The translations under genes were made by a program, and so were the position numbers. This document shows, piece by piece, positions 1,732 through 27,873 of a stretch of 35,910 bases of DNA (positions within the stretch are counted from its first letter, which is position 1; each line of letters opens with the position of its first letter). Source of the DNA: Deltaproteobacteria bacterium (GTDB lineage Bacteria; Desulfobacterota; UBA8473); contig JAUXFK010000003.1 of NCBI GenBank assembly GCA_030623035.1, forward strand, positions 1 through 35,910, read 5' to 3'. The notes below the pieces were generated by a model, which did not search any database, had not been told where the DNA came from, and worked only from the letters and a program-made list of their open reading frames with translations.

Positions 1732-1895
1732 TCAATTTCGTAATTTTTTGCCATCTAAAGGAGCTAACGAGATTTTATGATTTTAATTGTCTTTTTCTTA
1801 CGATTTGAATTGTTTTGTTAAAGAGTTACTGAATTTCACATTTTTTACACAATATATAGTATTTTAATTGACTTTTACTACATTATATTGTATAT

Positions 1896-2154
1896 TGTTA
1901 ATTGATTTCCCTCAGCAAAAAAATCGGTCACAGCAAGGGCAATCACATTATAAGCCCGTGCAAAACTCGCGCCTGTTATGAGCGTAAAAAAAGAACAGTA
2001 TTGATCTTTGTAATTGAACAGTTACTAATGTATCTGTTCATACGCGTAACCATCAAGCAACACTTCTGTTCTTTCTTAACGCTCTATACACCGCTCAAAC
2101 AGTTGCACGCGTTATAATGTGACCGCCCTTGCTATGTTAACTCAATAAGCATTT
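1896..2154. repeat. Palindromic intergenic element, family A copy 1
   Basis: Left arm ccctcagcaaaaaaatcggtcac...aatcacattata..cccgtgcaaaactcgc...agaacag, right arm ctgttctttcttaacgct...cgctcaaacagttgcacgcgttataatgtgaccgccc...gttaactcaataagcattta. Same motifs recur at 4714, 13672 and 27612. Confidence 0.85.
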
Positions 2155-4713: not shown

Positions 4714-4980
4714 GTAACAGTTTAGCTTTTTTAAATGTTATTTGCTTCAATGGTGGTCAAATTTTAACGCGTGCAACTGTTTGAACATCTTAGTGAGCGT
4801 TAAGAAAGAACAGGGGAAAAGCCTCGTTTTTCTAGGATGTTAATCGTTCCAAAGCTTATCGGCTGAATTTAATAGCTGAATGCTGTTCTTTCTTTATGCT
4901 CTTTTAGATGCGAGTTCTGCACGGGTTAAAATTTGATTGCCGTTGAAGCTTGGCCAGTGCTTTCTGTTTCATAAGGCTAA
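4714..4980. repeat. Palindromic intergenic element, family A copy 2, starting 3 nt after the gyrB stop
   Basis: gtaacagtttagcttttttaaa at the left end; hairpin arms caaattttaacgcgtgcaac / gcacgggttaaaatttg; core gagcgttaagaaagaacag / ctgttctttctttatgctc; nearly identical to 13672-13912. Confidence 0.88.
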
Positions 4981-5120
4981 AATAATACATATAAACATAT
5001 TACTGAAATCACTAAATACAATGCACCTTATCCTGCCCTTATGACCAACTAAACCTAACATCTTATTAACCTTACGGGTTTCTGTCTTCTTAAAAATATA
5101 AAGGAAAACTAAAGAGTATT

Positions 5121-13671: not shown

Positions 13672-13947
13672 GTAACAGTTTAGCTTTTTTAAATTTTAGT
13701 TGCTTCAACGGTGGTCAAATTTTAACGCGTGCAACTGTTTGAACATCTTAGTGAGCGTTAAAAAAAACAGGGGGAAAGCCTTGTTGTTCTAGGATGTTAA
13801 TCATTCCAAAGCTTATCGGCTGAATTTAATAGCTGAATGCTGTTCTTTCTTTATGCTCTCTTAGATGCGAGTTCTGCACGGGTTAAAATTTGATTGCCGC
13901 TTTAGTGACCGATTTTTTTTGCTGAGGGAACTCAATAGCCATTTAAT
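13672..13947. repeat. Palindromic intergenic element, family A copy 3 (mosaic ends), starting 8 nt after the upstream CDS stop
   Basis: Left part near-identical to copy 2 (gtaacagtttagctttttt...gggttaaaatttgattgccg); right end tgaccgattttttttgctgagggaactcaatagccattta is the type seen in copies 1 and 4. Confidence 0.87.
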
Positions 13948-15798: not shown

Positions 15799-16228
15799 AG
15801 TGCTCTAACTCGTAAATTCGGTGTCGTATTTTAGGTCAGAGTTCCGATCGTTGACCCGTCGGATTCGGGGGACCCTAAAGTGTAAAGTGCCTAAAGTGAG
15901 CTAAAGTGCCTAAAGTTAAAATATTCTAAGTGACTATTGAGTTAACTCCGAATAAAAGAAATTTCATGTTAATTATTAAAGGGATAGCATTATTAGAAAT
16001 TTATTGGACGCTCTCGTCTCTTATTTTTTAGAATCGAGACGTTACCCATAATGTTTTCGGAGCGAATTCAATAACCATTATATTATATTTTGATTTCATT
16101 CTTAAAATCCGCTCTGATTCTTGTCCTGTTTGCTTTATGGCTGTTTGCTCTAATCGAAGTTCCGTAATACATGACTAATGCTCTGAAAGCGTATCCCTTA
16201 ACTTTAGTTCACTTTAGGCACTTTAAAC
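15799..16228. repeat. Family B element copy 1: left outer arm + taaagtgcc-type arms + core, interrupted by a nested family A-ended insert
   Basis: Outer arm agtgctctaactcgtaaattcggtgtcgtattttaggtcagagttccgatcgttgacccgtcggattcgggg...ccctaaag recurs inverted at 18681-18761; core attttgatttcattcttaaaatccgctctgattcttg...aatgctctgaaagcgtat recurs in the same orientation in copy 2. Confidence 0.9.
15929..16086. mobile_element. Nested MITE-like insert inside family B copy 1
   Basis: TIRs gactattgagttaactccg / cggagcgaattcaataaccatta. Copy B2 carries the uninterrupted sequence atattctattttgattt at the equivalent position, so this block is absent there. Confidence 0.82.
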
Positions 16229-16250
16229 TTTTAGGTATTAAGGCCGGTTT

Positions 16251-16730: not shown

Positions 16731-16772
16731 AAGGCCCCTCTTCGAAGTCTTTTGTTGTAATATCGTATTATT

Positions 16773-16843
16773 TTAGCCTTATGAAACAGAAAGCACTGGC
16801 CAAGCTTCAACTGCAATCAAATTTTAAAAAGCTAAACTGTTAC
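16773..16843 (-). repeat. Short (71 bp) derivative of the family A copy 2 termini
   Basis: Reverse complement gtaacagtttagctttttaaaatttgattgcagttgaagcttggccagtgctttctgtttcataaggctaa joins the left end (4714...) directly to the right end (...4980) of copy 2 without the central hairpin. Confidence 0.85.
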
Positions 16844-17634: not shown

Positions 17635-18465
17635 ATGACGGTTCCCCATGCGATTATCTTAGGAATTCTTCAGGGGCTGACGGAATTTTTGCCTGTAAGT
17701 AGCTCAGGACATTTGGTTATTGCGCAGCATTATTTAACGGGATTTAATCAGCCGGGGATCCTATTCGATGTTATGTTTCATATGGGGACGCTATTCGCAG
17801 TTCTGATATACTACAAAAAGGATATCTTCCTTATTTTAAAGTCAATCTTCGATGGGTTTCATGTCCGGCGAGGGTATAAAGATAAAGACTGTGATATATA
17901 TAGATCACAGCGAAGATTTGCGTTATTGATTGTTGTGGGGACTCTTCCCACAATTGCAGTCGGGTTTTTATTTAGGGATCATGTTGGGATTTTATTCGAT
18001 TCTGTTAAGTTCACTGCGTCCATGTTAATTGTAACAGGCATACTTCTGGCTTTTGCGGATCGTATCAAGGTAAAAAAGCGAGATGTAAAAGCCTTAACCC
18101 TTAAGGATTCTCTTCTCATTGGCTTCGTTCAGGGGCTCTCGATTACACCCGGTATTTCTCGGTCAGGTTCTACAATCGCTACAGGCCTGTTCAGAGGGAT
18201 TGATGGTGAAGAAGCTGCAAGATTTTCTTTTTTGCTTTCAATCCCAGCCATTCTGGGAGCAACAGCACTGGAAATTCCGGAAATCTTACACATTAAGGCT
18301 GGTGATATCCTGGCCTGTACAATTGGTACTTTTACTGCTATGATAACAGGTATCCTGGCCATACGGTTTTTTATCAGGATATTAAAGCAGCAAAAGTTAA
18401 GATACTTTGCTTATTATTGTTGGGGTCTTGGATCAATGGTTATACTGCTTAATTTTTTATCATAG
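17635..18465 (+). CDS. uppP: Undecaprenyl-diphosphatase
   Basis: GILQGLTEFLPVSSSGHLVIAQ and GFVQGLSITPGISRSGSTIATGL motifs; multi-TM protein. Confidence 0.97.
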   Translation: MTVPHAIILGILQGLTEFLPVSSSGHLVIAQHYLTGFNQPGILFDVMFHMGTLFAVLIYYKKDIFLILKSIFDGFHVRRGYKDKDCDIYRSQRRFALLIVVGTLPTIAVGFLFRDHVGILFDSVKFTASMLIVTGILLAFADRIKVKKRDVKALTLKDSLLIGFVQGLSITPGISRSGSTIATGLFRGIDGEEAARFSFLLSIPAILGATALEIPEILHIKAGDILACTIGTFTAMITGILAIRFFIRILKQQKLRYFAYYCWGLGSMVILLNFLS

Positions 18466-18498
18466 TACACGCATTCTTAAATATGATTACGTATTAAG

Positions 18499-18761
18499 TT
18501 TAAAGTGCCTAAAATGAGCTAAAGTGCCTAAAGTTAAAATATTCTATTTTGATTTCATTCTTAAAATCCGCTCTGATTCTTGCCATGTTTGCTTTATGGT
18601 AGTTTGCTCTAATGGAAGTTCCGTAATACATGACTAATGCTCTGAAAGCGTATTCCTTAACTTTAGTTCACTTTAGGCACTTTAGGGTTCCCCGAATCCG
18701 ACGGGTCAACGATCGGAACTCTGACCTAAAATACGACACCGAATTTACGAGCTAGAGCACT
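18499..18761. repeat. Family B element copy 2 (uninterrupted core, outer arm on the right)
   Basis: gtttaaagtgcctaaaatgagctaaagtgcctaaagttaaaatattctattttgatttcattc...aactttagttcactttaggcactttagggttccccgaatccgacgggtcaacgatcggaactctgacctaaaatacgacaccgaatttacgagctagagcact. Confidence 0.9.
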
Positions 18762-22051: not shown

Positions 22052-22203
22052 GTAACTGTTTAGCCGGATAGTGATTTGTATGGTCTTTGACGAGCATTTT
22101 TGAGTTATTTTGTTAAAGATTCAAATGCCTTCCTTGACCTTGAACAAAATTGCTCATTTCTGGATAGACACTCGTTAGCCCTTTAAAATGGCTAAACAAT
22201 TAC
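22052..22203. repeat. About 152-bp TIR element (gtaactgtttagcc / ggctaaacaattac) containing a family C terminus
   Basis: Terminal 14-mers are inverted with one mismatch; the internal ccttccttgaccttgaacaaaattgctcatttctggatagacact is the reverse complement of the 25801 element end. Confidence 0.75.
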
Positions 22204-25782: not shown

Positions 25783-25800
25783 ACCGCTTTAAACTTAAAT

Positions 25801-25944
25801 AGTGTCCATCCAGAAATGAGCGATTTTGTTCAAGGTCAAGGAAGGCGAAGCTTTTAACCACAGGAATATATTGAGATATTTCGAGGATTAAAATCTGAGC
25901 CTGACACAGAGATTGGGCAAAAGGGCCATTTATGGATGGACACT
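25801..25944. repeat. Family C TIR element (144 bp) overlapping the transposase stop codon
   Basis: agtgtccatccagaaatg at the left and catttatggatggacact at the right; related copies at 22119-22172 and 27525-27602. Confidence 0.85.
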
Positions 25945-26413
25945 AAATATTTGCCCGTTCATCTATGAGATCGTGTTCTTTTGTATCTTGAAGTAAACTC
26001 TTTAACTCTTCTATATTTAAACTCCCCATAGTCTCTATATAAAAATTTCCGCTCCAAAGCTTTTTTATCCTGTACTTCTTCTGTATCTCCCTATGCCTAT
26101 TTAAGATTGAAAATGATGTCCTTTCTATTATATCCTTAACAATGCCGGGTATGTAATGGGTGGGTTTGGCACATAAAATCAGATGGGCATGGTCTGGATG
26201 AAGAACCAGCCCAAATAACTCGTATCCCTTATAAAGAGTAATTTCTTTAAAGATTATTTCCAGTTCTGTTGCTGTTTTACTGGTAATTATAGGCTGTTTC
26301 TTGGGTGTAAAGAGTATCAGATGATAACTGATCCTATATGCAAGGTCTGAATATCTATTATAATTTGTTTCCTTAAGGGGTTTGAAATAGGAGCAAAGGA
26401 TAATATGGGGCAT
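25943..26413 (-). mobile_element. IS200-like (Y1/HUH) transposase CDS
   Basis: YHLILFTPKKQPIIT, HPDHAHLILCAKP (HUH), KKLWSGNFYIETMGS with a candidate catalytic Tyr; single-domain TnpA_IS200/REP-associated type; no adjacent tnpB. Confidence 0.85.
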
Positions 26414-27524: not shown

Positions 27525-27602
27525 TCCACAGAAATGCCCCTTTTGCCCAATCTCTTCACTTTCTTTGATCTGAAACAGGATTACTCATTTCTGGATGGAC
27601 AC
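27525..27602. repeat. Short (about 78 bp) family C derivative
   Basis: Reverse complement gtgtccatccagaaatgag...agagattgggcaaaaggggcatttctgtgga matches both ends of the 25801-25944 element without its middle. Confidence 0.75.
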
Positions 27603-27611
27603 ATAATAATA

Positions 27612-27873
27612 AATAATGGCTATTGAGTTAACTCAGCAAAGGCGGTCACATTATAACGCGTGCAACTGTTTGAGCAGTGTAGTGAGCGTTAAGAAAGAAC
27701 AGGAGATTGTTTCTTGGTTGTGAGTCGTAACATATTTATTTGTGACTGTCTAATTCAAATGATCAATACTGTTCTTTCTTTATGCTCACTAAATCGCGAG
27801 TTTTGCACGGGTTATAATGTGATTGCCTTTGCTGTGACCGATTTTTTGAAAAGAGAAGTCAATAACCATTTAA
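27612..27873. repeat. Palindromic intergenic element, family A copy 4
   Basis: aatggctattgagttaactcagcaaaggcggtcacattataacgcgtgcaactgtttgagc...gagcgttaagaaagaacag / ctgttctttctttatgctc...gcgagttttgcacgggttataatgtgattgcc...gaagtcaataaccattta. Confidence 0.88.

Follow-up and report, generated by a model that had tools for sequence, protein, structure and literature searches.

An element with IS1595-type ends nested in a second repeat family of a Deltaproteobacteria genome

The window analysed here is a stretch of 35,910 nt from a Deltaproteobacteria bacterium (contig JAUXFK010000003.1). It contains two copies of a repeat of about 300 bp, designated B. Copy 1 (15800-16230, minus strand, delimited by alignments, right boundary approximate) is located between ispD and ispF. 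Copy 2 (18465-18760, plus strand) adjoins the stop codon of uppP, the ORF of which ends at 18465, and lies upstream of ftsK. The repeat finder returned the same B copies as direct alignment. A genome search gave 48 B pieces in the source genome; the genomic repeats were gathered by searching. In copy 1 the right arm is found at the left in reverse complement while the interior is oriented as in copy 2, a layout that an inversion of the interior between its inner repeats TAAAGTGCCTAAARTGA would produce. The opposite arm of copy 1 has eroded. Several genomic B copies had an identical triplet on both sides, TAA/TAA or TTA/TTA, which indicates a 3-bp TWA duplication and hence another transposase family for B. 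These flanks point to a different MITE family from that of the element inserted in copy 1. The window gave no match in an Rfam search.

Pairwise alignment of the two B copies showed a lone gap of 159 bases in sequence otherwise about 95% identical, in agreement with the preliminary description of an extra block in copy 1 and a matching empty site in copy 2. The extra bases span 15921-16087 of copy 1. Several equivalent placements of the gap are possible because of local homology at the junction. The biologically supported placement divides the 159 bases into a 151-bp element (15929-16079, plus strand) and an 8-bp target duplication. The left duplicate ATATTCTA (15921-15928) is the same as the empty site, which occurs singly at 18539-18546 in copy 2. 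The right duplicate ATATTATA (16080-16087) carries one C-to-A change, and the insert's own duplication matches at 7 of 8 positions. The ends of the element, AGTGACTATTGAGTTAACTCCG...CGGAGCGAATTCAATAACCATT, differ from AATGGCTATTGAGTTAACTC at 2 and 4 of 20 positions, which confirms the family A-type terminal inverted repeats described for the block; the left end deviates from the consensus at 2 positions. The element sits between ispD and ispF without disrupting a gene, and no ORF of at least 100 aa was found inside it. Its folding is stronger than that of shuffled sequence (z = -3.3). Such folding is expected from its inverted repeats, so no function was inferred from it.

A family set was assembled from inward-facing pairs of the end AATGGYTATTGA that lay 25-300 bp apart, with up to 3 mismatches in both ends combined. 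The set comprised 25 same-ended elements (AATGGYTATTGA...TCAATARCCATT) in the source genome and 9 candidates in other genomes. For flank comparison, each element was taken to start with the first A of AATGG and to finish with the last T of CCATT. The flanking 8-mers matched at 7-8 positions in 14 of the 25 elements, whereas 2000 shuffles re-pairing the flanks gave an expectation of 0.94 and a maximum of 6. Mean flank identity was 0.74 at length 8 and 0.34-0.50 at every other length. Perfect 8-mer flanks were present in seven elements, and perfect 5-, 6-, 7- or 9- to 12-mers in none. The other genomes repeated the 8-bp result, with at least 7 of 8 positions matching in five of the nine candidates. 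Two further elements of family A lie in the window: one of 260 bp (1894-2153, minus strand) with a perfect 8-bp duplication TATTGTAT/TATTGTAT, and one of 256 bp (27615-27870, plus strand) with a strong fold-back and flanks TAATAAAT/TAATAAAA matching at 7 of 8 positions.

Three arrangements of A-type ends outside the window were also recorded. A 30-bp perfect palindrome, AATGGTTATTGAGTTAACTCAATAACCATT, occurred at L016 106-135 in the source genome and at L118 1239-1268 in a member of Planctomycetota. It consists of two overlapping ends with no interior, flanked by 8-mers that match at 7 and 6 of 8 positions, and it possibly arose by deletion between GAGTTAACTC repeats or represents a minimal element. 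On contig C114 of the source genome (L094, 217-1265), two A-type ends stood 1049 bp apart around two small ORFs, one of which showed a zinc-ribbon-like Cys pattern; the outer 8-mers matched at 6 of 8 positions. This could be a passenger-carrying element or a chance arrangement. On contig C138 (L106, 5064-6581), two A-type elements surrounded bioB with a perfect outer 8-mer AAACTCAA. A composite transposon was not claimed there, because the flanks themselves belong to another repeat.

The state of the insertion point was compared among the intact B sites. Ten distinct sites, copy 2 and nine elsewhere in the genome, were empty and read ...AAAATATTCTATTTTGATTT... with no more than two substitutions outside the variable bases of the pattern. 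Only copy 1 of the window was filled. Since ten intact sites are empty at the same place, B copy 1 is the older and the insertion the younger, which upholds the order of events proposed in the preliminary description. A second full copy of the insert was found at C114:1114-1265, outside any B element, with 91% identity; its flanks matched at 1 of 8 positions, without a duplication. Its presence outside B shows that the block is a repeat in its own right and did not belong to ancestral B. Among 118 genomes searched, which included the source genome and seven of its family, the block was present in the source genome only, and no B copy carrying it was seen in other species. At a contig start (L052 on C14, 1-90), a fragment of the 151-bp element was joined directly to B interior at a point that differs from that in window copy 1.

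The exact end pattern AATGGYTATTGAGTTAACNC was searched in 84,980 genomes and found in 21 stretches, which came from Deltaproteobacteria, Planctomycetota, Candidatus Kuenenia and unnamed bacteria. One of these, L123 (JAFDED010000101.1) of the same phylum, contains a transposase ORF with the end at its 3' tip; the product of this ORF matches PF12762 DDE_Tnp_IS1595 (E 8e-24) and PF12760 Zn_ribbon_IS1595 (E 1e-16). The 3' end of this gene and the window element at 27615 have 24 of 24 bases in common, AATGGCTATTGAGTTAACTCAGCA, 20 of which were preselected by the search pattern. The telling evidence is therefore the position of the end at the gene tip, together with two more copies of the transposase in the L123 genome (91-92%), which were found via the protein and also bear this end, mismatched at 2 of 15 positions. 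Full-length IS1595 elements from elsewhere in the phylum, about 1 kb long, had perfect 8-bp duplications and cousin ends such as TCGCCTATTGACTTAGCTGACC and TGGGGGTATTCAATTAACTCC, and the register of ends and duplication agreed with that of the A-ended elements. IS1595 members usually make 8-bp target site duplications and encode a zinc finger and the DDE_Tnp_IS1595 domain (PMC8101967), and ISApl4 targets A/T-rich 8-mers (PMC12561309).

The close end match was limited to one side of the transposase-bearing copies. At L200 and L201 the 5' end was a cousin (TACGCCTATGAACTTAGCTCAGC and TTTGCCTATTAACTTAGCCAGC), and the flanks showed no 8-bp duplication. A complete autonomous element bearing the matching end on both sides was not found, seven other genomes that carry the end sequence included. 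Searches with PF12762 and the L123 protein gave no match in the source genome, which is 85% complete in 268 contigs, and a check of singleton ends in 20 contig stretches found no transposase between paired ends. A MITE does not strictly need its source transposase in the same genome. Relatives of the L123 transposase did not occur in viral contigs; in plasmids there were only distant IS1595 members with less than 60% identity.

The preliminary description had read the junctions as compatible with a 2-bp target duplication, TA, of the kind made by IS630/Tc1-mariner-type MITEs, and the 159-base gap does allow a placement in which the block ends in TATTA and each junction has TA. However, TA was present on both sides of none of the 25 same-ended elements, while the family signal lies at 8 bp; the TA reading would also offset the two ends of the insert by 6 bases, and the same ends occur on an IS1595-family transposase element. 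The lack of TA flanks at the other same-ended copies tells against that duplication and against no other part of the description, and the surplus bases seen at the right end belong to the 8-bp duplication. We regard the IS630/Tc1-mariner reading as scarcely credible. It is nearly as improbable that B originally contained the block and that the remaining copies lost it. From two copies alone gain and loss are not separable, but ten independent empty sites against one filled would demand repeated precise excision, and the block is bounded by an 8-bp duplication of its own and is also present outside B. A chimeric assembly of two repeats would suit a genome in so many contigs, several of which end inside B and two at the insertion point. 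We give it equally little weight, as the junction is exact and is set between the unique genes ispD and ispF, and a chimera would not produce a target duplication.

Movement of the A-ended elements by some other family that makes 8-bp duplications, such as IS66 or an undescribed transposase, with the IS1595 end match being secondary, is unlikely but deserves somewhat more consideration than the preceding explanations. The source genome holds a second family with 8-bp duplications and GTAAC ends, and an IS1595 gene was not found in its incomplete sequence. Against this stand the identical end at the IS1595 gene tip, its recurrence on two more copies, and a register of ends and duplication as in full IS1595 elements; the ends of the second family are unrelated in sequence to the A ends.

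Judged from sequence comparison, the block is very probably a MITE of IS1595 type, non-autonomous and mobilised in trans, that sits inside an unrelated MITE with 3-bp TWA duplications. The borders, the 8-bp duplication, the empty sites and the order of events can be read off the sequence directly, whereas the mobilisation in trans is inferred. In the mechanism we propose, a DDE transposase of the IS1595 family, acting in trans and presumably of the L123 subgroup, would recognise the terminal inverted repeats of about 20 bp, AATGGYTATTGA..., and would insert the element of 151 bp at the A+T-rich 8-mer ATATTCTA of a B element already in place. The staggered 8-bp cut would then be filled by gap repair, which would duplicate the 8-mer, and one base of the right-hand duplicate would have changed later.

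Resemblance to the IS1595 family lies in the terminal sequence of the family A elements, identical at 24 of 24 positions to the 3' end of the IS1595 element of the same phylum, in the A+T-rich 8-bp duplication and in the register of the ends. The block is unlike IS1595 elements in lacking a transposase gene and in being 151 bp long instead of about 1 kb, and only one end of the known transposase-bearing copies matches closely. Trans-mobilised bacterial MITEs, such as MITEPye1 with its IS1182-type ends (PMC11578231), are likewise short and non-coding; they have terminal inverted repeats and a fold-back, make target duplications and share their ends with an insertion sequence. The IS family is a different one, and here one MITE lies inside another. 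The TIMEs, miniature elements derived from Tn3 (PMC4133298), are comparable in being short and ends-only, in moving in trans and in building mosaics, but they belong to the Tn3 family and not to IS1595. The IS1595-type MITE is known as a kind, and the 151-bp element is a new example of it. The nested insertion is clean, with many empty sites, but the event itself is of an ordinary kind. It also illustrates that comparison of two copies can misplace a target duplication, and that the 8-bp length, as opposed to 2 bp, emerged only from the family as a set.

The second MITE family, designated C, is bounded by the ends GTAACAGTTTAGC/GTATTATTTTAGC. It has many copies in the genome and is represented in the window at 4714-4988, 16765-16843 and 22052-22203. 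Its 8-bp duplications were perfect in 15 of 25 elements. GTAA ends with 8-bp duplications are reminiscent of IS66. The window further contains a Y1 (IS200-like) transposase gene (25943-26413, minus strand; PF01797, E 2.7e-19). Inverted repeats GTGTCCATCCAGAAATGAG are found near this gene at 25796-25846 and 27554-27602, and also at 22127-22177. The gene is possibly a REP-associated transposase with its repeats.

The same A ends enclosed quite different fold-back interiors in different genomes of several phyla. The 256-bp element at 27615-27870 folds extremely well (z -10.5). Its fold-back core occurs between A ends and, with about 75% identity, between GTAAC ends, and the GTAAC-ended elements make 8-bp duplications of their own. 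A related genome carries the same core with a third kind of flank. In the window, a chimera at 13672-13943 (plus strand) has the shared core between a C-type end (GTAACAGTTTAGC) on the left and an A-type end on the right. Its flanks showed no target duplication, so the chimera was probably made by recombination in the core. It is possible, although we put this forward tentatively and with some doubt, that a pair of IS1595-type ends of about 20 bp is a portable frame around unrelated fold-back interiors, some of them similar to dispersed palindromic repeats, in deltaproteobacteria, Planctomycetota and other bacteria. The finding of one core between both A and GTAAC ends in the source genome would on that reading reflect exchange of interiors and ends between transposase systems.

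The results link an abundant intergenic repeat of this lineage, hitherto without a name, to a specific transposase family. If ends and interiors are modular, these elements would lend themselves to the study of how MITEs arise.
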